Source: a bacterium (GTDB lineage: Bacteria; Patescibacteriota; Gracilibacteria; UM-FILTER-43-11). Taken from it: a stretch of DNA of 34,754 nucleotides. Under the pieces are notes generated by a model. The model ran no database searches and was not told where the DNA came from. It saw only the letters and a list, made by a program, of their open reading frames with translations. Both the position numbers and the translations under genes were made by a program. Shown piece by piece: positions 5,337 to 33,158 of the stretch (positions within the stretch are counted from its first letter, which is position 1; each line of letters starts with the position of its first letter). The stretch covers positions 1-34,754 of the forward strand of contig JAUHWS010000011.1 in NCBI GenBank assembly GCA_030427295.1, in the 5' to 3' direction.

Positions 5337-7334
5337 TTATGCCTCAGCTTCAGATTGCCTTCGACTCAAAACGTCTTCGGGATTGGTGGTGATGATGCGA
5401 TCTTCATCGTAGCTGGCGATGATTTGGATGGCGACGTGTTTTAATCCCGCAAAGAAAAGCCCTTGTCCGACATTGGCGTTCAGCAATAGATATTTTTCTC
5501 CTTCGGTCAGATTAAAAATTTCAGCCAGTCGGTCGATGGCACTGCTCGATTGTTTTAAGAGTAGCTGCATCGACGAGTTGGTGATGATGGGCTTTCCATA
5601 GCTTGAATTCACAAAATCTTCCACATCCTGGGTGATGGTGGTGATTCCCAAGTAATATTTACGGGCTCGTTTAACGAGTCCATACAAAAAGCGAGCACTG
5701 TCTTCGTACTGCATCAAAGACCAGGCTTCATCAATGATTAGGAGTCGTTTCTTTAGGCTTGAGCGTACGGTGTTCCAGATGTAGTTCAAAATAATGTACA
5801 TGGCGATGGGTCTCAGGGCATCTTCCAAATCACGAATGCAGAATACCATCAGTCCACTAGTGTTCAGGTCTACGTTGGTGGGTTTATTGAACAGACCCGA
5901 GAAGGTTCCCACGGTATACTTTTGGAGCCGTTGAGCCAAATTTTCTCCCCCTTGCATGCTACTGAGGATGTCATGCAAGTCTTCCATGGTCGGAGGCTCA
6001 AGTTCGGATGGTTTTGGGGTGTCCATGGTGATGCCTTTTAAGGCATAGGTGTCTAAAAGGGCTTTGTCCATCAAGCCTTCTTCCTCTGGAGTGAGTTTTC
6101 CTAACATCAAATTGAGTAGTCCATGTAGTGTGATGATGTTGGATCGTAGCAATTCACCTGAACTTTCATCTCCTTCACCGATTGGAGAAGGTAGGTCAAA
6201 GGGGTTGATGCGTTGATCTGAATTCAGCGACACGCGCAAATAGGTTCCATTGACGGTTTTAGACAATTCTTCATATTCGTTTTCTGGGTCGATGATAATG
6301 ACTTCCGTTCCCATCATCAGAGAGCGCAAAATTTCGAGTTTCACCGCATAAGATTTACCGGCTCCTGATTTCGCAAATACCACGGAGTTGGCGTTTTCAA
6401 GGTTGAATCGGTCGAAGATGATCAAGCTATCGTTGTGTCGGTTGATTCCATAGAGAATTCCCTCACTACTGGTCATATCAGAGGAGCTGAAGGGGAAGGT
6501 GGTCGATAGGGGGTTGGTGTTCATGTTGTGATGAATTTCAAGTTCATCATTGGCTAGGGGTAGAGATGAGTTGAATCCATGTTCCATTTGCATTTCAGCG
6601 GGTTTGCTGAGCACGAGTTTTCCCCCTAGCGTCGATTCGAGTTTGGTTTGAATTTTTTTGATCTTGTCTTCGTCTTCAGCATAAATCGTGAAATAGAGAC
6701 CAAATTGAAAGAAGCGCTCTTGTCCTCGTTGGAGGTTCCGACGCAGTTCTTCGGCATCTTGCAAGGCGGTTTCGAGGGCGGGGTCAGACACCATGCCTTT
6801 TTCTTGCTCGATGTGGATGCTTGATTGAATTTGAGCGACTTTGTTTTTCAGGAATTTTACCATTTTGGCACTACTGGTGGGATAGATGAACATTGAAATG
6901 TCCATGCTCACGTCGAAGTTGATAACGGGCGAGAGCCAGTTGACTTCGGTGTAGCGTGGGTAGGCATAAACGAAAAAACTTTTGGCAAACATCCCACTGA
7001 CTTTGAGTTTATCGACCATCACTTCCATCGATGAGGGTGAGATCAGGTCTTTGATGGTGGCAATGCCTTCTCGATAAATTTTTTCAGCTTCTCTGATTTC
7101 TTGAGACGTGGTTTTTTCGGTTGATTCTGGCTTTCCTACTTCTTTACCTTCTTTTTCAGTTTTGGGCTTAGCGGGTGGAAAAAGGGTGAGTTTTAGTTTT
7201 TTGAAAAATCCCATTTTTCCCTCTTTTTTTTCAGGATTAGCTGTTTTTTCACCTTCTGTTTGAGGTGTTTTCAGTGAATCAGGAATGCTTGGCGGCACAC
7301 TGACGACGTTTTGATTTTGATTTTCTGCTTCCAT
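5337..7334 (-). CDS. VirB4/TraC-type conjugation/secretion ATPase
   Basis: A 665-aa soluble ATPase. Residues 1-80 are a charged linker rich in Lys/Glu/Pro; 90-300 match the N-terminal VirB4/TraC domain; then Walker A FAKSGAGKS (about 320-328) and Walker B RLLIIDEAWSLM, with the Asp near 535, followed by a RecA-type sensor segment TTITQDVEDF. Family knowledge: VirB4-like ATPases power substrate transfer and pilus assembly in type IV secretion systems. No other T4SS component is in the window. Inference: in CPR-type genomes such orphan or dispersed ATPases may serve DNA uptake or a reduced pilus; not testable here. ATG 7334. The histidine kinase stop lies 60 nt upstream, so co-transcription is plausible. 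The 3' end abuts a paired TATATA box. Confidence 0.85.
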   Translation of the reverse strand: MEAENQNQNVVSVPPSIPDSLKTPQTEGEKTANPEKKEGKMGFFKKLKLTLFPPAKPKTEKEGKEVGKPESTEKTTSQEIREAEKIYREGIATIKDLISPSSMEVMVDKLKVSGMFAKSFFVYAYPRYTEVNWLSPVINFDVSMDISMFIYPTSSAKMVKFLKNKVAQIQSSIHIEQEKGMVSDPALETALQDAEELRRNLQRGQERFFQFGLYFTIYAEDEDKIKKIQTKLESTLGGKLVLSKPAEMQMEHGFNSSLPLANDELEIHHNMNTNPLSTTFPFSSSDMTSSEGILYGINRHNDSLIIFDRFNLENANSVVFAKSGAGKSYAVKLEILRSLMMGTEVIIIDPENEYEELSKTVNGTYLRVSLNSDQRINPFDLPSPIGEGDESSGELLRSNIITLHGLLNLMLGKLTPEEEGLMDKALLDTYALKGITMDTPKPSELEPPTMEDLHDILSSMQGGENLAQRLQKYTVGTFSGLFNKPTNVDLNTSGLMVFCIRDLEDALRPIAMYIILNYIWNTVRSSLKKRLLIIDEAWSLMQYEDSARFLYGLVKRARKYYLGITTITQDVEDFVNSSYGKPIITNSSMQLLLKQSSSAIDRLAEIFNLTEGEKYLLLNANVGQGLFFAGLKHVAIQIIASYDEDRIITTNPEDVLSRRQSEAEA

Positions 7335-14878: not shown

Positions 14879-15934
14879 TTAGTTCACAATTAGTCCCATT
14901 CCCAGTAGTCCGATGATGAGGCCGGCGACGCCGAAGATAGCTCCCATGATCCAAAAACGCATGGTGATTTTGGCTTCTCCCCAGCCTTTTTTTTCAAAGT
15001 GATGATGAAGGGGGGCGATCAAGAATACCTTCTTTTTGAAAACGCGTTTGCTGAACCATTGGATTAAGACGGATAGAGTTTCTACAATAAATACCATTCC
15101 TACAATAATTAACACAACGAGTGAATCCGTCATCATGGCAATAACGCCCAGGGTTGCTCCGTACGCCAAGGAACCTGTGTCTCCCATATAAAATAGAGCA
15201 GGGGGGATATTGTTCCACAAGAAGGCAGCCAAACTACCAATCATCAATCCACAAAAAATAGCTAAAGCAAATTGGCCTTTTACAAACGCAATGACTCCAA
15301 AGGCTGTGCAGGCTAGTAATAGTAATCCTCCTGCTAAGCCATCTAAGCCATCAGTGATGTTAACAGCGTTGGCGGTGGAAACGATGACTAGGATGAAAAG
15401 GGGGATGTACCACATGCCAATTTCAAAATCACCGATGCTGGGGATATGGATGCTGGAAATCTCTAGTTTATAGAAAAACCACCAGGCACCTGCCATGGCA
15501 AATAGTAATAAAAAAAGCATCTTGGGTTTAGCCTTAATGCCTTTTGAGCCGCCGATTTGTCTGATGTTGAAAAAATCATCAACTCCCCCTAAAAGCCCCA
15601 TGGCGATGAGAGTGAAAAGGGGTAAGTAGACCTCCCCCCGTTGGAGTAAGGATTGTTCAATTAAGCCAAAAAAGGACAGTAACCTTGAAAAAATAATGAT
15701 CAATAACACCGACCCCCACATGATGACCCCCCCCATGGTCGGGGTGCCTTTTTTCTTGGCATGCATTTCTTCAAAAAATGTGGCTTTACCTCCGCCTGTA
15801 GCTTCGCTGCGAATTTGTTTGCCGAGTTTTAATTTTTTAGCGTATTTTAAATAAACTGGAGTCAACATCAAGACCAGTACAAAGGTCAAACTTGTCCAAA
15901 TAAAAACCTGTATGAGCTGCGTTGAAATTTCCAA
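14879..15934 (-). CDS. mraY: Phospho-N-acetylmuramoyl-pentapeptide transferase
   Basis: Transfers phospho-MurNAc-pentapeptide to undecaprenyl phosphate to form lipid I, the first membrane step of peptidoglycan synthesis. The 351-aa protein has about ten membrane helices, the normal length. Signatures: KKGTPTMGGV near the N-terminus, GGVDDFFNIR, NITDGLDGLAGG with the catalytic Asp pair, FYMGDTGSLAYGA, and APLHHHFEKKGW with the conserved triple His. The start is TTG 15934: no ATG or GTG lies between the dnaB stop and the first helix. The gene follows dnaB by 33 nt, away from any dcw cluster in this window. Its stop codon touches a paired TATATA box. Confidence 0.95.
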   Translation of the reverse strand: MEISTQLIQVFIWTSLTFVLVLMLTPVYLKYAKKLKLGKQIRSEATGGGKATFFEEMHAKKKGTPTMGGVIMWGSVLLIIIFSRLLSFFGLIEQSLLQRGEVYLPLFTLIAMGLLGGVDDFFNIRQIGGSKGIKAKPKMLFLLLFAMAGAWWFFYKLEISSIHIPSIGDFEIGMWYIPLFILVIVSTANAVNITDGLDGLAGGLLLLACTAFGVIAFVKGQFALAIFCGLMIGSLAAFLWNNIPPALFYMGDTGSLAYGATLGVIAMMTDSLVVLIIVGMVFIVETLSVLIQWFSKRVFKKKVFLIAPLHHHFEKKGWGEAKITMRFWIMGAIFGVAGLIIGLLGMGLIVN

Positions 15935-25427: not shown

Positions 25428-26600
25428 ATGGATATTGACCAGTTGCTTCATCGGGGGGTGCAGGATATTGTGCCGAAAAAGGGCTTGCTTGAAAAAATTA
25501 AGGCTGGCAAAAAGCTCAAGGTTTATTTGGGGATTGATCCTACTTCCACGAATATTCATTTGGGGAATGCGGTGCCCCTCCGTAAATTACGGGATTTTCA
25601 AGAAGCGGGTCATGAAGTGATTTTTTTGGTGGGAAGTTTTACAGCGTTGATTGGTGATACCTCCGATAAAGATGCGATGCGTCAGCCCTTGACTCAGGCG
25701 CAGGTGGAGAAGAATTTTCATACTTATAAAGAACAGGCGTCTAAAATTTTGGATTTTTCAAAGGCCCAGATTTTATACAACGGAGAGTGGCTTTCGAATC
25801 TGAGCTTCCAAAATATTGTGGAGTTGGCTCAGCATTTTACGGTCCAGCAAATGATTCAGCGGGACATGTATCAAAAACGTTTGGAGGCGGACAAGCCGAT
25901 TGGTTTGCACGAGTTTTTGTATCCTTTGATGCAAGGGTATGATTCGGTGCACATGGAGGTGGATTTGGAAATTGGGGGAAATGACCAACTCTTTAATATG
26001 TTGGCGGGTCGCACGTTGCTTCAGGCTTACAAACAAAAAGAAAAGCATGTGCTTACGACACCTCTCATTGAAGGGACCGATGGCCGCAAGATGAGTAAGA
26101 GCTATGGAAATGTCATCAACATCACGGACTCACCTCAGGATATGTTTGGGCGTACGATGTCGATGTCCGATGATTTAATCATCAAATATTTCTTGCTTTG
26201 TACGGATGTGCCGTTCAAAGAGGTGGATGAAATGGATAAAGCAATTAAAGCCGGGTCGAATCCTCGGGATGCGAAGGTGCGTTTGGCGCGGGAGTTGGTG
26301 AAGATGTATCATTCTGCTGAGGCGGCCGATCAGGCTCAAAAAGATTTTGAGACGATGTTTAAGAAAAAGGGGGTTCCGGATGAGATTCCGGAATTCAAAC
26401 TGAATGGCGATCGGAATATTGTGGATTTGCTCGAGCTCTGTAAGTTGATTCAATCGAAATCTGAAGGGCGCCGGATGATTCAGCAGGGTTGTGTGTGGAT
26501 CAATCAGGATCAAAAAATTACGTCTCACGAAGAGGTGATTCACCTGGAGGAGGGGATGATCGTGCAGGTAGGGAAACGGAAATTTGCGAAGGTGGTTTAA
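25428..26600 (+). CDS. tyrS: Tyrosyl-tRNA synthetase
   Basis: Charges tRNA-Tyr. 390 aa, within the range for bacterial TyrRS. Class I signatures: HLGN at 44-47 (the HIGH motif, in TSTNIHLGNAVPL) and KMSKS at 221-225; tyrosine/ATP-pocket segments YLGIDPTS and GGNDQLFNMLAGR; a C-terminal S4-like RNA-binding domain (about 330-390, MIQQGCVWINQDQ). The start at ATG 25428 follows its own promoter. The stop overlaps the convergent muramidase/VanY gene by the 4-bp TTAA (26597-26600). Confidence 0.95.
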   Translation: MDIDQLLHRGVQDIVPKKGLLEKIKAGKKLKVYLGIDPTSTNIHLGNAVPLRKLRDFQEAGHEVIFLVGSFTALIGDTSDKDAMRQPLTQAQVEKNFHTYKEQASKILDFSKAQILYNGEWLSNLSFQNIVELAQHFTVQQMIQRDMYQKRLEADKPIGLHEFLYPLMQGYDSVHMEVDLEIGGNDQLFNMLAGRTLLQAYKQKEKHVLTTPLIEGTDGRKMSKSYGNVINITDSPQDMFGRTMSMSDDLIIKYFLLCTDVPFKEVDEMDKAIKAGSNPRDAKVRLARELVKMYHSAEAADQAQKDFETMFKKKGVPDEIPEFKLNGDRNIVDLLELCKLIQSKSEGRRMIQQGCVWINQDQKITSHEEVIHLEEGMIVQVGKRKFAKVV

Positions 26601-28306
26601 TGACTGTGTTGATGGTAGGCAAGGTCACTTTTATTTCCTTGTCTCACATAAGCCATTAATCTTGCATCTCCTTCTTTAAGGATGCCTTGTTTTTGCATGA
26701 TTTTGACCCAGTAAACAGTTCCTATTTCAAAGTGCCAGGCTTCGTTTTGTAGCCGAACAAAGCCCACGGCGTTCATGTATTTTTCTAGCTGTTTGTTGTA
26801 GGGTTCGCGGTGTGCTTCTTTCATTTCATCGGAGGTGGCTGCGGACAATCGGTTTTTTTTGTCTCCTAGTTTATAGAGGGCTAAGTCGACGGCTCCTCCT
26901 GATTGATGCCAGGAATTGCCAGGAGGTGCCGCCCACTTGCGGGCTGCTTTTCCATGTTTTTTTTTCGCAGCTTCAAAGATATCTTTTTGAGCTTCTGGAC
27001 TCCTGTAGCCTGAAGCGGGAATGATTTGATAGCCATCTTTCCTTGCTAATTCATTGGCTTCATCGAGTCCTCTTTTGAGTGTCTCTCTAAGGACGACTCC
27101 TTCGTATTTTGCGATGGTCGGTTTGACTCTTTCTTCGTTGACATTGTAGTGTTTTAGGTAGCCTATTCTGTCTTTTTGAATCGGGTAGGTCAGTACTCGG
27201 TTTTTATGGCGTGCTACTTCTATTTTTTCAGCTTCCATCAGGTATTTTTCGTTTGCTGTTCTAATTCTTCCTTGAGCTCCTAAAATCAATCCGGCAACCC
27301 CCACTCTTTGGCTTATTTTTGTTCTGTCGAATTTACCATCGGCCACAAATCTTCCTCGTGGCGTTAGGTTGGTTCCTCCATAAACATAGCCCGTTCGTTT
27401 TCCTTTATTTCTATATCCGTATCCGTTATAAGCTTCGGCAAAGGCTGCTATTTTACCCATGTCTGTGGTGTTCTTGTTGATACCAAATTTTCTTCTTAAT
27501 TGTTGAAAATATTTGAGAGATGGCTTTGGCGGATGGCTATGATCATTGATGTTTCCTCCCAGGGCATGTATGGCCGATTCTCTCCATCCTTTTTTCCCTT
27601 TTGGAAAGAGAATTCCGGGGGGATGAATGGTGGTGGGTTCTCCTAGGGGTTGTCCGTTGTGTAAGTAAGTTCCAAAGTTCATCTCACTTTCCATTTTATG
27701 AATGGCAGCGATGAGTAGAGGTGGCATGTCGACTTCATTGGAAACGCCTTCATAAAGATGTTTGTTGACTTCATATTTTTCTTTGAAGTTATCGACTTGT
27801 TTTTCGGTTTTTCCTGGCCACAGTTCTAAGTACTGCATGTTTTGACGGTGTTCTTGAGCTAGTTTTTCGGGTTCTCTCGTTTTTTTCACTTCAAGATTGA
27901 AACCTTTTTTCTTCCCATGCTGCTCATACCGACGAATGCTCTCGTCGGACATGCGGACGGTGGTGCCGGTTTTGTCTTTGACCCCCATGCGTTCGAGTTT
28001 GTATTTGTCGAATTCTTCTTTGTCCATCATCAGGCCGAGCATGCCGATGGCGAAAATTCCAAAAATGCGACTGAATTTTTCTTTCATGTCGATTTTATTG
28101 AAGTCTTCGTAGAGGCGTTGCATTTCACCTCCGACGTAGCGCATGACTTCGACTTTGGTTTTTATTTCTTCTCGTGCTTGCTTGAAAACATCCATACTTT
28201 CTTTGACATCTTTGGCTGTTTCTTTAGCTTTTTGACCCGCTTCTTTGGCGGCGTCGACGCTGGCTTGAACGGTTCCCGCTGCTTTGTCCACAAGGTTGTC
28301 ACTCAT
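26597..28306 (-). CDS. Bifunctional peptidoglycan hydrolase: muramidase-like domain plus VanY/M15B carboxypeptidase domain
   Basis: 569 aa. Residues 1-60 form an amphipathic Lys/Ala/Glu helix without a cleavable signal peptide; 80-94 is a short hydrophobic segment (FSRIFGIFAIGMLGL). Residues about 180-350 match a lysozyme-like domain seen in phage and bacterial lysins: LIAAIHKMESEMNFGTYLHN with candidate catalytic Glu206, and EAYNGYGYRNKGKRTGYVYG. The C-terminus (about 420-545) is a VanY-type D-alanyl-D-alanine peptidase: ASGYRSPEAQ, SWHQSGGAVDLAL (zinc His467 and Asp), and EAWHFE with His525 and Glu527 region. Cleaves glycan and peptide parts of peptidoglycan. Last gene of the minus-strand cluster, 9 nt after the 494-aa gene. 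Inference: cuts the wall for an assembled structure, or a prey wall. Confidence 0.85.
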   Translation of the reverse strand: MSDNLVDKAAGTVQASVDAAKEAGQKAKETAKDVKESMDVFKQAREEIKTKVEVMRYVGGEMQRLYEDFNKIDMKEKFSRIFGIFAIGMLGLMMDKEEFDKYKLERMGVKDKTGTTVRMSDESIRRYEQHGKKKGFNLEVKKTREPEKLAQEHRQNMQYLELWPGKTEKQVDNFKEKYEVNKHLYEGVSNEVDMPPLLIAAIHKMESEMNFGTYLHNGQPLGEPTTIHPPGILFPKGKKGWRESAIHALGGNINDHSHPPKPSLKYFQQLRRKFGINKNTTDMGKIAAFAEAYNGYGYRNKGKRTGYVYGGTNLTPRGRFVADGKFDRTKISQRVGVAGLILGAQGRIRTANEKYLMEAEKIEVARHKNRVLTYPIQKDRIGYLKHYNVNEERVKPTIAKYEGVVLRETLKRGLDEANELARKDGYQIIPASGYRSPEAQKDIFEAAKKKHGKAARKWAAPPGNSWHQSGGAVDLALYKLGDKKNRLSAATSDEMKEAHREPYNKQLEKYMNAVGFVRLQNEAWHFEIGTVYWVKIMQKQGILKEGDARLMAYVRQGNKSDLAYHQHSH

Positions 28307-28315
28307 CGAGCGGGG

Positions 28316-29800
28316 TTATTTGTTTTTATCTTCTTTCCCCGCCCCTTTGTCATCTGCATCGTCATCTGTTGTTGTCTCAGGGGTGGTAGGTGCGCTGGTT
28401 TTGATTTGATCTAGCAATCCACGTAGATTTAATCCTTTGCTTGGATCATTTAGACTCTGAATGATTTGATCATCAATTGAATTGAGAATGTTTCCATCTT
28501 TGTCGAGTTTGGCGACACTGGCACGAATTTGTCCCCCTTCAACATTCATGTCGATCATGTATTTTTCATTCCCTCGGGTCACATCGATGGTGGTTCCGTT
28601 GGAGGCGGATTCCATTTTTGATATTTTCATACCCGTTGATAGTCCTGCTTCAATTTTTTTCTCGATGGGTGTTTTGAGGAGTCCTCGATAGGGCGTGGGT
28701 TCTGATTTTCCAAATTCAAAAAGTTCTTTGGCTTTTCGCGATCCTTCTGGGTCTGCATGGAGTTTGATCAATTGACCCAAATCATCGATATGATCCACCG
28801 CATCTTTGTAAGTTTTTTCTGCATTTTCAATGCGTTTGGCCATGTCGTGTTTCCCTTCTGCGGCATCAGATATGGCTTCTTGCAGGACGCTGTAATCTCC
28901 CGTGGCTTTAGCTCGGTTGTAGAGTTCGAGGAGTTTCATGCCGATTTTGAAGAGTCGTCCAATCCCACTTTCTTTTTTGCCCATTTTTCCTTTTTCGATG
29001 GCATTGGCGGTTTGAAGGGCTAGGTTCATTTCGGTGAGCTTGGATTGAAGGGCTTCGCCGTAGGCATTTTTGTCAGCATCGGTGGCCCCTTCGGCATTGG
29101 CGGCGGCATATTTTTCACGGATGTCTTGGGGGAGGAGGCTGGGTATGAGCTCTGCGGTGACTTCCACATCTTTATCGCCTTGTTTGACATAAAGTTTTCG
29201 TCCTTTCCCCCCAAATTCGTATTGCATCGAAAGGAGGGTCAAGGCGTCTTCGCCAAATTTGTCACCCACTTTTTTTCTTAGGGCATTGATTTCATTTTCA
29301 TTAGGAAGTTTAGCGGCTTCAATTCCAGTTTCTTTTTTGAACCAGGTTGCGAATGTTTTTTCGTCTACGGTGTATTCTCCACTTTCATTGGGTTTCATCC
29401 CCTCGACGAATTTTTTGAATTGTGGATGTGTTTTAACTTCTTCAGCGAAGCTGGCTTGATCTAAATTTTCTTTACCCATGTACTGCATCATGGTATGAGC
29501 GAGTTGGGGGTTATTTTCCCAAATGGCATTGGCGGCTTTTTCGGCTTCGCCTTGAATTCTTTCCCCCGTTTCTGGATCAACGTCTTTTTCGTCGACATCT
29601 TGATCCACTTTTTCCTTGGCTTGATCGGCTTCTTTTTCAGCGCGTTTATTACTCAAATCATCGGGATTGTCTAATTGTTCTCCGGCAGCTTCTGGAGCAC
29701 CTTCGCCTTGCCCCTCAATTTTTCCTGCTCCAGGAATTTCTCCGTCGAAAACGAATCGCTTGAGTTCAAATTCTTGGAATGTTTCTTTTTTGATGTGCAT
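28316..29800 (-). CDS. 494-aa hydrophilic protein, unknown
   Basis: Not recognised. A soluble, charged protein without signal peptide or membrane helix. Residues 25-95 are Glu/Asp/Lys-rich and disordered (KEADQAKEKVDQDVDEKDVD). The central part (about 100-340) is predominantly helical, with segments like NPQLAHTMMQYMGKENLDQA and LFKIGMKLLELYNRAKATGD. A beta-rich domain (about 375-450, GTTIDVTRGNEKYMIDMNVE, ASVAKLDKDGNI) follows. The tail is Thr/Asp/Lys-rich. It lies in a tight cluster, 9 nt ahead of the peptidoglycan hydrolase, implying a shared transcript and probably a shared process. It could be a structural or secreted component. ATG 29800. Confidence 0.6.
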   Translation of the reverse strand: MHIKKETFQEFELKRFVFDGEIPGAGKIEGQGEGAPEAAGEQLDNPDDLSNKRAEKEADQAKEKVDQDVDEKDVDPETGERIQGEAEKAANAIWENNPQLAHTMMQYMGKENLDQASFAEEVKTHPQFKKFVEGMKPNESGEYTVDEKTFATWFKKETGIEAAKLPNENEINALRKKVGDKFGEDALTLLSMQYEFGGKGRKLYVKQGDKDVEVTAELIPSLLPQDIREKYAAANAEGATDADKNAYGEALQSKLTEMNLALQTANAIEKGKMGKKESGIGRLFKIGMKLLELYNRAKATGDYSVLQEAISDAAEGKHDMAKRIENAEKTYKDAVDHIDDLGQLIKLHADPEGSRKAKELFEFGKSEPTPYRGLLKTPIEKKIEAGLSTGMKISKMESASNGTTIDVTRGNEKYMIDMNVEGGQIRASVAKLDKDGNILNSIDDQIIQSLNDPSKGLNLRGLLDQIKTSAPTTPETTTDDDADDKGAGKEDKNK

Positions 29801-29847
29801 TTTTTATTGCTTATTATTGATTACTTATTTGCTGATTACTTATTTTT

Positions 29848-30480
29848 TTAACTATTGGATTCTTTTTTTACAATTTCGTTCATTCCACCAGAGACGTTTT
29901 TTAGATCGATAATTCCTTTTTTTAGACTTTCGATTGTATTTTCTGCTTTGGCTTGCATGGAAATATCTCCTTCATGTATCAATCTTATGCTTATTTTTCC
30001 ATCTGATCGTGGGCTTATGAGAAAGTCTTGCTCAAATGTAGTGGTTAATATTCTTTTTTCCCCATCAACAATTTCTTCTTTTGTTTCAGACTGGAAAACA
30101 ACGTTTAATTTAAGACTATTTGGAGCAACTCCTGGTTCCAGTATTGCTAAATTCATCTCTAATTTTTCGGAAAGGAATTGCTTGGTTGCTTCTAGTTTTT
30201 CTCTGTAATTTGCTTCTGTCAAAGTTTTTTTTTCGCCTTCTTCCATTGAATCGATTGCTTCTTTTCCTTGGTATAAATCTTCTATGATCGTTTTAACACT
30301 TGGCTTATTTTTTTCTATTGCTTCAGGTTGAACATTGCTTTCATTTTGCCTTTCTGGAATTTGCGCCTTTAACTCGTCCAGCTCAACACTCGTTTCTTGT
30401 ACTTCGGATGTTCCAGGTCCTGATTCTTTGAAGAATATGTTTCTTAGAACGCTGAAGATTTTAAATGGTTCTTTTGGCAT
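29848..30480 (-). CDS. 210-aa protein, unknown
   Basis: Not recognised. Basic N-terminus (MPKEPFKIFSVLRNIFFKE), a disordered Glu/Pro/Gln segment (20-70), then a folded part with a helical stretch (KTLTEANYREKLEATKQFLSEK-type) and an extended beta region: LKLNVVFQSETKEEIVDGEK, TTTFEQDFLISPRSDGKISI, RLIHEGDISMQAK. The alternation resembles the beta-rich module at the end of the 494-aa neighbour, and both may be versions of one domain; this is a visual guess. Cluster member, 48 nt upstream of that gene. AT content is higher than in its neighbours. Confidence 0.55.
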   Translation of the reverse strand: MPKEPFKIFSVLRNIFFKESGPGTSEVQETSVELDELKAQIPERQNESNVQPEAIEKNKPSVKTIIEDLYQGKEAIDSMEEGEKKTLTEANYREKLEATKQFLSEKLEMNLAILEPGVAPNSLKLNVVFQSETKEEIVDGEKRILTTTFEQDFLISPRSDGKISIRLIHEGDISMQAKAENTIESLKKGIIDLKNVSGGMNEIVKKESNS

Positions 30481-30535
30481 GATTTTATTTTTAATTTTTT
30501 CCCTTAAGATTAATTTTAAATTTAAATTTAATTCA

Positions 30536-31234
30536 CTAGCTCACTTTTTCTCTGGCTTCTACTTTTGCTTTTAAATCATTGATGTCTTTGAATTCAATGG
30601 CTGGATCGAGTCCCTTTCGGGCTTCCAATTTATCTCCCACTTGAGTGATTTCGTACTCATCTCCATTTTTTAAGGTAAGGATTCCTGGTTTTGATTCCAA
30701 TCCTGTTTTAGGTTCTGTCAGTGATTCAACCTCGGGCCATTGTTCTTGAAGATATTTCAAACCTCCTTCAGCCTGACTGAGTTCGATGAGATCCATGACT
30801 GAATAGTTGGTTGATTCGGTGGTTTCACTAGGCGCTTCTGATTGTCCTTCATTTTTTTCACTGGTTTGAGTTTTTTTATTTTCTTTTGGAGGGGTTTGGG
30901 CTTGGGCTACTTGCATGAGCTCATCTACCCCTAGCCAAGCAAATAAGCCCTGCGTGATTTGAGCGTACACTTCACTGTCGGGATCGAGCCCAATTTTTTC
31001 TCCGATTTCGGCCATTTTTTCGTTGACGAATTCGACCAGGTCTTCTGGATTTTTGATTCTTTTTTTGCCTTTTTCTTTGGCTTCATTTGCTGCACCATCT
31101 AACTTTCCTTTTTCAGGGCTGCGGTCAATTTCCCTTTGTGCAACCTCTCCATGAAGCCCAGCTAAGCTTTCATGTGTTTGACCAGGAGTGACTTCTGGCT
31201 TTTCTGGACCTCTGCTTATTTCTGGATTTGCCAT
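30536..31234 (-). CDS. 232-aa acidic protein, unknown
   Basis: Not recognised. The first 60 residues are Pro/Glu/Lys-rich and likely disordered. Residues about 62-110 form a helical segment (DLVEFVNEKMAEIGEKIGLD, FAWLGVDELMQVAQAQ), then a Lys/Thr/Ser/Glu linker (115-145) and a C-terminal region with YSVMDLIELSQAEGGLKYLQ and a beta pair LTLKNGDEYEITQVGDKLEA. That last pair resembles the folded tail of the 494-aa and 210-aa neighbours, supporting a cluster-specific domain. No signal peptide. It is 4 nt downstream of the 89-aa gene, so translationally linked. Confidence 0.55.
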   Translation of the reverse strand: MANPEISRGPEKPEVTPGQTHESLAGLHGEVAQREIDRSPEKGKLDGAANEAKEKGKKRIKNPEDLVEFVNEKMAEIGEKIGLDPDSEVYAQITQGLFAWLGVDELMQVAQAQTPPKENKKTQTSEKNEGQSEAPSETTESTNYSVMDLIELSQAEGGLKYLQEQWPEVESLTEPKTGLESKPGILTLKNGDEYEITQVGDKLEARKGLDPAIEFKDINDLKAKVEAREKVS

Positions 31235-31238
31235 TTTT

Positions 31239-31508
31239 TTAATGGTTAGAATTGATTTTATTTAAAATGTCCTCTTTCGCGGCATCGAAGGTGCGGAGCA
31301 CGTCATCTTTTTCTTCGTTTTTGACGATGTACACCCCGCGTTCGGCGGCGTTGCATCGATAGTTGAAGGCTTCGATCAATTTTAGGTAATTGGGTTGATC
31401 GTCCCGGTCCATCAGGAACATGGCTAAGATGTAGCGGGCTTTGAGCTCATCGGACAAGTGTGAGTTGTTTTTGATGAGATCGATGATTTTTTCTTCGAGA
31501 TCAGTCAT
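31239..31508 (-). CDS. 89-aa protein, unknown
   Basis: Not recognised. A small, helical, charged protein (MTDLEEKIIDLIKNN, ARYILAMFLMDRDDQPNYLK, NAAERGVYIVKNEEKDDVLR). No cysteine motif or membrane helix. Length and helix pattern would suit a chaperone or adaptor for a neighbouring secreted protein, but nothing in the sequence proves it. The next gene starts 4 nt after its stop. It is separated from the upstream 75-aa gene by a 98-bp spacer holding 7-bp tracts. Confidence 0.55.
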   Translation of the reverse strand: MTDLEEKIIDLIKNNSHLSDELKARYILAMFLMDRDDQPNYLKLIEAFNYRCNAAERGVYIVKNEEKDDVLRTFDAAKEDILNKINSNH

Positions 31509-31534
31509 TGTTTAATTATGAATTATTTTTTTAG

Positions 31535-31602
31535 AGCGTTTAGTGATCAGCGTGTAGTGTTTAGCTCCATGTTTTTTACTATTCGCTAATCGCTAATCGC
31601 TA
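31535..31602 (+). repeat. 7-bp-period tract, block D copy 2
   Basis: GCGTTTAGTGATCAGCGTGT, then TTAGCTCC and ATTCGCTAATCGCTAATCGC. Similar in order and orientation to 5171-5256. Confidence 0.55.
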
Positions 31603-31606
31603 ATTA

Positions 31607-31834
31607 TTACGAATGGTTTGTTTGACTATCTTCATTTTCATTCCCGTTTCCATTCAAGGCTTCCAGATCTTTCAAAAGTTGCTCTTCAGCCGCGGGGACT
31701 TCAACGGCTTGATGTTGTTGACTGCTGTCTTTACGAATTTTTTGCGCTTTTTGACCGCCTTTTTTGATGGCGGCGGCGTGTTTGGGGTCGTATCGACGTC
31801 GTCTGGCCGGTGGCATGTAGTCTCCTTGGCCCAT
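31607..31834 (-). CDS. 75-aa small protein with basic N-terminus, unknown
   Basis: Not recognised. The first 35 residues are strongly basic (PPARRRRYDPKHAAAIKKGG, QKAQKIRKDS), resembling a nucleic-acid-binding tail; the second half is acidic and Asn/Glu-rich. No fold signature. It is flanked on both sides by repeat tracts, so its grouping with the cluster is positional. Moderate confidence that it is a real gene: the ATG is clean and composition is protein-like, but it is short and low-complexity. Confidence 0.45.
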   Translation of the reverse strand: MGQGDYMPPARRRRYDPKHAAAIKKGGQKAQKIRKDSSQQHQAVEVPAAEEQLLKDLEALNGNGNENEDSQTNHS

Positions 31835-31970
31835 TTTGCTTTAATTACGAATTATTAATTACGAATTGGGTGCGTATAGGATGCGAATGGCTTTATTTAA
31901 GGATTATGTATTACGTAGTACGCATTATGCATGAGCTGATTTTTACTCCGCACCACGCACCACGCACTTG
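31835..31970. repeat. Repeat-rich spacer within the minus-strand cluster
   Basis: TTACGAATT units (31839-31866), GTGCGTATAGGATGCGAATG, then ATTATGTATTACGTAGTACG with GCATTATGCATGA, and CACCACGCACCACGCAC. The central block matches parts of 24598-24640 and 34545-34580. No gene. Confidence 0.6.
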
Positions 31971-32357
31971 TTAGATGATATACACGTCTCCATACTCTTT
32001 CTCGAACTTGGATTTCATTTGGAAGACGGTTTCGACGAGGTTCTGGATTTGGAAGGTGGCGGTTTGGTCGAGTTTCCAAATGGATTCAATCTGACGAATG
32101 GTGCTCATCAGGTTGATGGCGGTGAGGCTGGCTTTTTCTTGCTCTTTTTCTGACAATTGGTCGTAGATGGCGTGGTTGTAGAGGGTGTTGGGATTGTGAG
32201 TCTCTAGCTCGCCTGATTCAAGCTTTGCGATGAGCATTTTTAGGAACTCCTCGTGTCCTTCGTTGAAGCCGGTGTCATCTTTGGCTGGTTTATTGAGCAT
32301 GTTTTGCGTGGCACCATCCACTTGGTGATTTTCGTATTGTTTCAGTAGGTTTTGCAT
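31971..32357 (-). CDS. 128-aa helical protein, unknown (weak FlgD-N-like resemblance)
   Basis: First gene of the minus-strand cluster. Not firmly recognised. The stretch EEFLKMLIAKLESGE (residues about 37-51) followed by NPNTLYNHAIYDQL recalls the N-terminal part of hook-capping protein FlgD (a DFLKLLxxQL...DPxNP pattern), but only loosely and over about 30 residues. The rest is helical (TAINLMSTIRQIESIWK, IQNLVETVFQMKSKFEKEY). No signal peptide. ATG 32357 follows an AT-rich, TATATA-containing stretch. Co-location with a muramidase-type gene would fit an envelope-spanning structure, but no flagellar gene is present. Confidence 0.55.
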   Translation of the reverse strand: MQNLLKQYENHQVDGATQNMLNKPAKDDTGFNEGHEEFLKMLIAKLESGELETHNPNTLYNHAIYDQLSEKEQEKASLTAINLMSTIRQIESIWKLDQTATFQIQNLVETVFQMKSKFEKEYGDVYII

Positions 32358-32442
32358 ATATATATAAGTTTAAATCTAATTATTTTATCACAAAAAAGGC
32401 TTGAAATCAAGGCTGGTCCGCTTTTAAAAGTATTGTCTAAAA

Positions 32443-32477: not shown

Positions 32478-33158
32478 ATGGAATACTATGAGCGCATAAC
32501 AGAATTGGCCGAAGCGGATCTTCTCTATGAACGTGATTCAGGTGTTTATGCTTTGCATGGTACCTCAATACAAGCCATTCGTTTTTTGGCTGAACATGGA
32601 CGTATGCCAGTTTCTGGCTTTGTGAGCTTTGAGAGTTCTGGTCATCAGCGGGGTGAATTTTATTTTGTTCCTTCGGATTCTTCAGCTCCTACTAGCCCTG
32701 AAACAATTGCTTTGCGTTATGCCAAAATGCTTTCTGCCAGATCTAGGCTATTTTCCTTGTTTAAGCCGGAAGATTTCTCCCTTTCAGATGAAGATATTTT
32801 TAATCTCATGCAGATTTTTACTTTTCATGACCCAGATCAGCATCTTGGTGCAGTTGATTATGAATACGAATATCCTCATCTTATTCCTGTTTTGGCTCAA
32901 ATTTTAAAGTGTCAACCTTCGGAAATACTTGTGCATCTTTCTAGATTCCATATGAAAAAGGCAGGAATTATCATTGCCTTAAACAGTCGTATTTATGATG
33001 ATTATGAAGTTCATGCCGGTGATACTGATGATGATCGGTATATTGTTGTTCCAGAAGGCTTGCCTATTGATTGTATTGCTAGCATCGAACCAGTGGGGCA
33101 AGAAGACTATGACGCCTTATTCAAGGATGGTTTGGCTGATGTTGAAGTGACTTATTAA
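32478..33158 (+). CDS. Possible ADP-ribosyltransferase-fold protein
   Basis: 226 aa, soluble, single gene. N-terminal YALHGTSIQAIRFLAEHG (residues 24-41) has the form of the H-G-T/S entry motif of PARP/ART-fold enzymes, followed about 30 residues later by GEFYFVPSD, resembling the second strand with an aromatic/Tyr (Y62). A helical middle with IALRYAKML comes next. The end is KKAGIIIALNSRI and YIVVPEGLPIDCIASIEP, a strand pair with a Glu (about 208) that could be the third catalytic residue. Family knowledge: ART-fold enzymes move ADP-ribose or act on phosphorylated RNA. Inference only; activity and target are unknown. A plain hypothetical is the alternative. Confidence 0.5.
   Translation: MEYYERITELAEADLLYERDSGVYALHGTSIQAIRFLAEHGRMPVSGFVSFESSGHQRGEFYFVPSDSSAPTSPETIALRYAKMLSARSRLFSLFKPEDFSLSDEDIFNLMQIFTFHDPDQHLGAVDYEYEYPHLIPVLAQILKCQPSEILVHLSRFHMKKAGIIIALNSRIYDDYEVHAGDTDDDRYIVVPEGLPIDCIASIEPVGQEDYDALFKDGLADVEVTY

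Follow-up and report, generated by a model that had tools for sequence, protein, structure and literature searches.

A class-level, wall-related gene locus in Gracilibacteria that pairs small conserved proteins with fast-evolving large ones

We analyzed a 34,754-nucleotide stretch of DNA (the window; positions 1 to 34,754 of the forward strand of contig JAUHWS010000011.1, assembly GCA_030427295.1) from a bacterium of the class Gracilibacteria (Patescibacteriota; UM-FILTER-43-11). Seven neighboring genes on its minus strand (26597..32357) appear to be the local version of a locus that occurs across the class. The evidence supports a fast-evolving, wall-related and apparently undescribed locus that is real and conserved. 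Its constant part is a small protein, here called c0, usually with a second small protein (c5-like); wall hydrolases are frequent, not constant, and are its cargo. The hydrolases are of a known kind, and the conserved small proteins do not fall into any known family. Our best reading, to which we assign a probability of about 0.38, is that the small proteins are a conserved cytosolic carrier or scaffold for wall-directed cargo that lacks signals. We favor it because the small proteins are conserved much like housekeeping proteins, the large ones change fast, wall enzymes are among the latter, and export signals are not evident. The source bacterium is tiny and probably host-dependent; its assembly comprises 1.48 Mb in 98 contigs.

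The core of the locus is the 128 amino acid protein c0 (31971..32357, minus strand), the first gene, which has a conserved GDVYII end. It is 52-75% identical in 14 family relatives. Of 288 class genomes, 117 have it, each as a single copy. A search of 240 phylum genomes gave 17 matches, all inside the class, and the public matches are labelled mostly Candidatus Peregrinibacteria, Candidatus Gracilibacteria or Patescibacteria group bacterium, which places the source bacterium in the lineage that includes the Peregrinibacteria. No significant Pfam, PHROG or NCBIfam match to c0 was found. We compared 38 c0 neighborhoods across the class (including loci L049, L050, L052 and L053). The genes ligA or recG lie at most two genes upstream of c0 in 36 of them, and the c5-like protein, which is also small and helical, is in the same-strand run of c0 in 28. 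Between the two sit zero to four large proteins. The first opposite-strand, convergent gene is a sortase in 23 of the 38 loci (for example, L093 3623-4717; PF04203, E=1.6e-27), with mnmA next.

The large proteins of these loci (n=41, nearly all from the same-strand runs) contain Pfam domains for Peptidase_M23 (7), SLT (4), SLT_4 (4), and VanY (1). Wall-cutting domains (M23, SLT, M15) thus recur, and many loci have large proteins in which no domain was recognized. Proteins of L093 and L103 look NlpC/P60-like, an assignment that has no database support and that we do not claim. The hydrolase is not supported as the defining part of the cluster; three relatives carry the two small proteins only, so the hydrolase is cargo and not core.

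Within the family, we used the neighborhoods of the family genomes and 16 public contigs, which are largely from the same genomes. The order c0 (128 amino acids), c3 (60-87), c2 (about 90), c4 (326-544), c5 (115-182), c1 (371-1326), and then c7 or another lysozyme-like protein is recurrent, although genes of the type found at the c4 and c5 positions of the window (232 and 210 amino acids) are not a constant part of it. Where the contig reaches far enough, convergent genes for tyrS (PF00579) and NAD kinase (PF20143) usually follow. The cluster was initially described as unrecognized, and it stands as one whose order recurs across the family above chance, with a reduced core across the class. 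Mean identities, computed over the shorter protein of each pair, are 66% for c0, 53% for c3, and 56% for c2; the corresponding values for tyrS and NAD kinase are 73% and 56%. For c4, c1, and c7 they are 15%, 20%, and 16%.

The large proteins are modular and swap domains, including muramidase plus VanY, SLT-like, GDSL, and OmpA lipoprotein types. Lysozyme- or SLT-like proteins were found by reading, with weak Pfam support, in seven of the eight family loci that extend to, or almost to, tyrS. One c4 copy (L057 6619-7944, the same as L035:6619-7941) ends in a GDSL/SGNH hydrolase (esterase) domain (PF13472, E=4.5e-9). In relatives the cluster also includes tail-anchored proteins and lipoproteins of the OmpA type; one family locus additionally encodes a lipoprotein with an OmpA domain (PF00691, E=1.7e-16) and a protein resembling LPP20. 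We also noted extra lipoprotein-like genes at the cluster end in L044 (1558-6934) and L036 (10300-14027), one with an OmpA domain, and with repeated short modules.

Finding the hydrolase alone in relatives was to count against the initial reading, and this did not clearly come about. Muramidase-like and VanY relatives do exist outside the locus in other genomes, while the window's family usually has a lysozyme-like protein inside the cluster. Single-linkage grouping of c7 also pulled in a VanY protein from L051 that is outside the locus and was excluded from the cluster members. In L051 (6450-8189) and L072 (7204-9507), from other class genomes and outside the locus, a region that looks by eye like an alpha/beta-hydrolase is fused to VanY.

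Signal-like N-termini and membrane-like segments were scanned by Kyte-Doolittle hydropathy. A signal-like N-terminus is present in 0 of the 41 large proteins from the class versus 43 of 327 neighbors, and a 19-residue membrane-like segment in 0/41 versus 86/327. The window agrees with what had been said of it from the start: no cluster protein has a Sec-type N-terminus. The one membrane-anchor candidate is a 15-residue hydrophobic stretch of the hydrolase (residues 81-95, IFGIFAIGMLGLMMD, 28022..28066, minus strand). Its hydropathy is 1.97, and three family c7 relatives have values of 1.9-2.2 near the same place. We regard it as a possible, marginal signal anchor.

The other small proteins of the window are c3 and c2. 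The 75 amino acid c3 (31607..31834, minus strand) had been called doubtful, and we find it to be real: six relatives have a gene at the same position whose product is 48-68% identical. Its motif AEEQLLKDLEAL (31655..31690, minus strand) resembles the very last residues of the c5-like proteins found across the class (EEELLkkLqnL). The 89 amino acid c2 (31239..31508, minus strand) is family-specific: 15 of 18 family genomes have it, and a search of other class genomes gave no copy. It has a distant likeness to the hairpin of c5-like proteins and is matched by the c5 profile at E values of about 2e-4 to 4e-4; a WXG motif was not seen in the family of 89 amino acid proteins. In 9 of 11 cases the c5 of family members has a strong hydrophobic C-terminal tail. 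The genome also encodes two c5-like proteins outside the locus (L134 9562-9951 on G000:C63 and L135 3410-4291 on G000:C90), one after rpoD- and greA-like genes and the other near clpC.

The 569 amino acid hydrolase (c7; 26597..28306, minus strand) has a helical N-terminus, the short hydrophobic segment, a muramidase-like domain, and a VanY (peptidase M15) domain. It was first described as a muramidase-VanY fusion, and the VanY half of that description is firm. Residues 406-522 (26741..27091, minus strand) match PF02557 at E=1.2e-15, which is the sole domain recognized when all seven cluster proteins were scanned against Pfam, PHROGs, and NCBIfam. H467, D474, E522, and H525 are invariant in comparison with two relatives and the metal site is intact; the protein has the SxHxxGxAxD and ExxH residues of peptidase M15. 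Relatives of this half in the PDB are 4f78 (a D,D-dipeptidase/carboxypeptidase), 4ox3 (YodJ), and 5zhf.

The muramidase half (residues 170-365, 27212..27799, minus strand) is a likely assignment from sequence and model that falls short of formal significance, because all fold matches have E>0.5. The same domain occurs in 82 viral (IMG/VR) loci and in a Bradyrhizobium phage protein, where PG_binding_1 is present as well. E206 is the invariant glutamate of the domain. The viral search with the whole protein was empty, and the searches with its two single domains gave matches. This half has no Pfam match and no PDB sequence match. The AlphaFold model has a mean predicted local distance difference test score (pLDDT) of 68, with 92-97 in the best stretch of the muramidase region, and models the VanY half poorly. 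Foldseek with this model returned mainly goose-type lysozyme, MltF, Slt35/SltB, the autolysin Auto, and VanY. The viral domain, E206, and the lysozyme-type folds thus speak for a probable muramidase, and no structure match is individually significant.

The 494 amino acid protein (c1; 28316..29800, minus strand) has relatives of 371-1326 amino acids. Its AlphaFold2 model, made with 12 sequences, has a mean pLDDT of 75.9 and mostly 80-93 across residues 160-450. Residues 1-46 are disordered, and the protein comprises a disordered linker, a mostly helical core, and a C-terminal beta-sheet domain (alpha/beta5/alpha). Foldseek found no matches at E<=0.001 in PDB or BFVD. A housekeeping fold would have spoken against the initial idea of a special apparatus; for this protein, the model matches none. 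The initial annotation suggested that the 494, 232, and 210 amino acid proteins may share a beta-rich end. BLAST and hhalign give this no support at the sequence level, and such a domain was modelled in the 494 amino acid protein only. The 232 amino acid protein (30536..31234, minus strand) occupies the place of the divergent c4 proteins and has weak similarity to a 287 amino acid protein of a same-genus genome (E=6e-4). The 210 amino acid protein (29848..30480, minus strand) is in the place of the tail-anchored c5 of relatives; it has no similarity to c5 by profile search, nor to the 494 amino acid protein.

Proteins of the c1 type share an N-terminal motif some 20 residues long, here MHIKKETFQEFELKRFVFDG (29741..29800, minus strand). 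Of 41 operon proteins from other families, 4 have the pattern derived from it, R[FL][VIL][FYW], within their first 40 residues, versus 0 of 327 neighbors (p=1e-4), in a test that is not fully blind, as the W was added after non-family sequences had been viewed. We rejected the motif as a genome-wide secretion tag, given one significant copy in the window's own genome. Its copies are so scarce (this one, and four array genes in the genome G030) that it is locus-specific. The G030 array (L071 7450-13568, genetic code 25) encodes four tandem large proteins with a common N-terminus and long linkers. The N-terminus is comparable to the c1 motif and, in G030, is confined to these four genes. Its 605 amino acid protein bears the muramidase-like domain of the window, and the others apparently have different C-terminal domains without Pfam support.

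The lengths and the shared strand of all the open reading frames first reported hold, and the genes number seven, not six. Several gaps of 4-9 nucleotides had been noted; there are just two, the gaps being 9, 47, 55, 4, 98, and 136 nucleotides from the hydrolase upward. The stop ends of the hydrolase and of the convergent tyrS overlap by 4 nucleotides. On the strand of the operon there is one promoter-like site (32382..32410, minus), about 25 nucleotides upstream of c0, and this consensus match is not above chance. The cluster region has no Rfam families. Divergent from c0 is a gene for a 226 amino acid orphan (32478-33158, plus strand) without a family match, where relatives have recG or other genes.

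In the carrier or scaffold reading, small and probably cytosolic proteins (c0 and c5-like in the class; c0, c3, and c2 in the family) would handle a cargo of fast-evolving modular large proteins (232, 210, 494, and 569 amino acids here) directed at the cell wall. The predicted muramidase half of the hydrolase would cut the glycan strand and the predicted VanY half the stem peptides. As the large proteins lack ordinary Sec signals, another route to the wall is needed; this may be the weak internal anchor at residues 81-95, docking on the tail-anchored c5 of relatives, or a non-Sec exporter. The gene content, the synteny, the contrast in conservation, the enzyme domains, and the lack of recognizable signals are observed. 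We infer the joint action of the products, the carrier role, the export route, and the target, which may be the own or a host wall; action on the two walls is equally likely. Several points weigh against this reading. Three loci of one family (L118-L120) have no cargo, just c0 and the c5-like protein, and c0 stands without an operon in family f5, L053, and L111. The c5-like domain may have a general role, since the genome also has it next to greA/rpoD and close to clpC. For other c7 relatives the assignment to lysozymes is weak (the best E of their SLT-like regions is 0.0012), and some show no clear catalytic glutamate. No exporter ATPase is encoded in the locus, and a trained signal-peptide predictor is a finer tool than the hydropathy scan. 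It is rather doubtful that the c0 and c5-type proteins are a class-specific non-Sec delivery or assembly system that loads signal-less hydrolases and structural proteins for a host-contact site. The initial ideas of host attack and of an envelope-spanning apparatus are unproven.

The genes may instead serve ordinary remodelling of the cell's own wall, a possible though less than likely explanation. The hydrolase would then be an autolysin or division enzyme with a signal anchor (N-terminus in, C-terminus out), regulated or scaffolded by its neighbors. The hydrophobic residues 81-95, which are similarly placed in several c7 relatives, are consistent with this, as are the normal autolysin pairing of a muramidase with a D,D-peptidase, the housekeeping genes that adjoin c0, and an mraY-like gene of the genome (window 14879-15934). 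However, the class large proteins have no membrane-type segments (0/41), and hydrolase types are swapped or missing among relatives, which is unusual for a core autolysin. A role for the same enzymes inside the cell, recycling or digesting imported muropeptides as cytosolic VanXY does, is very improbable. VanXY types are the closest named relatives of the peptidase half and a Sec signal is absent, but the substrate of a muramidase is polymeric wall, which is not expected in the cytosol, and M23 and SLT enzymes of the class likewise act on polymers, judging from general knowledge of these families.

The window also encodes a VirB4/TraG-type ATPase (5337-7334, minus strand; PF19044, E=1e-27), about 19 kb from the cluster. 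As VirB1-like functions are dispersed in the phylum (PMC12102498), the cluster could be an accessory module that opens the wall for the Patescibacterial type IV secretion system (T4SS), with a VirB1/PrgK-like role and split from the virB4 locus. Patescibacterial VirB1 homologs are mostly away from virB4, and other glycosidases may substitute for them (PMC12102498). Candidatus S. epibionticum has essential genes for a lysozyme and a peptidase downstream of virB4 (PMC12102498). We nevertheless consider this role unlikely, with no T4SS component recognized in the window cluster or among the 41 class proteins, and with the T4SS spread through the phylum (PMC12102498) whereas c0 is class-restricted. 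The VirB4-like gene adjoins a histidine kinase-like gene; other T4SS genes were not recognized by eye beside it. Domesticated phage lysis genes or a prophage remnant would fit the muramidase-like domain, which is common in viruses (the IMG/VR loci and the Bradyrhizobium phage relative). Such an origin is hardly probable: c0 is absent from the viral contigs searched, the chromosomal position is fixed across many families, and no phage structural protein was recognized in the locus with PHROGs. We rejected the cluster as a phage element; its viral look is limited to the muramidase-like domain. Type VII (ESX) secretion was also rejected, as Pfam matches to WXG100 or an FtsK/EssC-type ATPase are absent from the cluster.

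Parts of the locus resemble described systems. Like PrgK and TraG of pIP501 (VirB1-like, from a monoderm T4SS), it brings a pair of predicted wall-cutting domains together in a single protein or locus with an envelope context, and the lysozyme and peptidase genes beside virB4 in Candidatus Saccharimonas epibionticum are two such activities in the same phylum (PMC12102498). In contrast to the VirB1-like hydrolases, which pair SLT with CHAP, it has a muramidase-like domain and M15, class-specific small neighbors, and no recognized T4SS gene. The peptidase shares its catalytic domain and metal site with the D,D- and L,D-carboxypeptidases VanXY, VanY, and LdcB, but here a muramidase-like domain and a helical N-terminus precede it in the same protein, and no resistance operon surrounds it. 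Phage proteins such as that of Bradyrhizobium phage ppBjS10J-1 have the muramidase-like domain at about 25-44% identity; the phage copy is joined to PG_binding_1 and the window copy to VanY, in a conserved chromosomal locus. Wall hydrolases have also been inferred for predatory Vampirococcus, from a related host-dependent lineage; they are presented as secreted or bound to the membrane, and not as part of such a locus (PMC8080830). The locus is not described in the passages searched of the open-licence Vampirococcus and Gracilibacteria literature (PMC8080830, PMC11452946, PMC6851277).

How Patescibacteria open their own wall or that of a host is largely unknown. The locus offers c0 as a compact, class-restricted, single-copy marker with a defined set of partners, and it poses a testable paradox of wall hydrolases without recognizable export signals. 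The 128, 75, and 89 amino acid proteins are strongly constrained, and the diversifying proteins are where a host-facing function would be expected. If the carrier reading is true, it would point to an export route not yet described for the phylum; if it is wrong, conserved and uncharacterized proteins of Peregrinibacteria have still been named.

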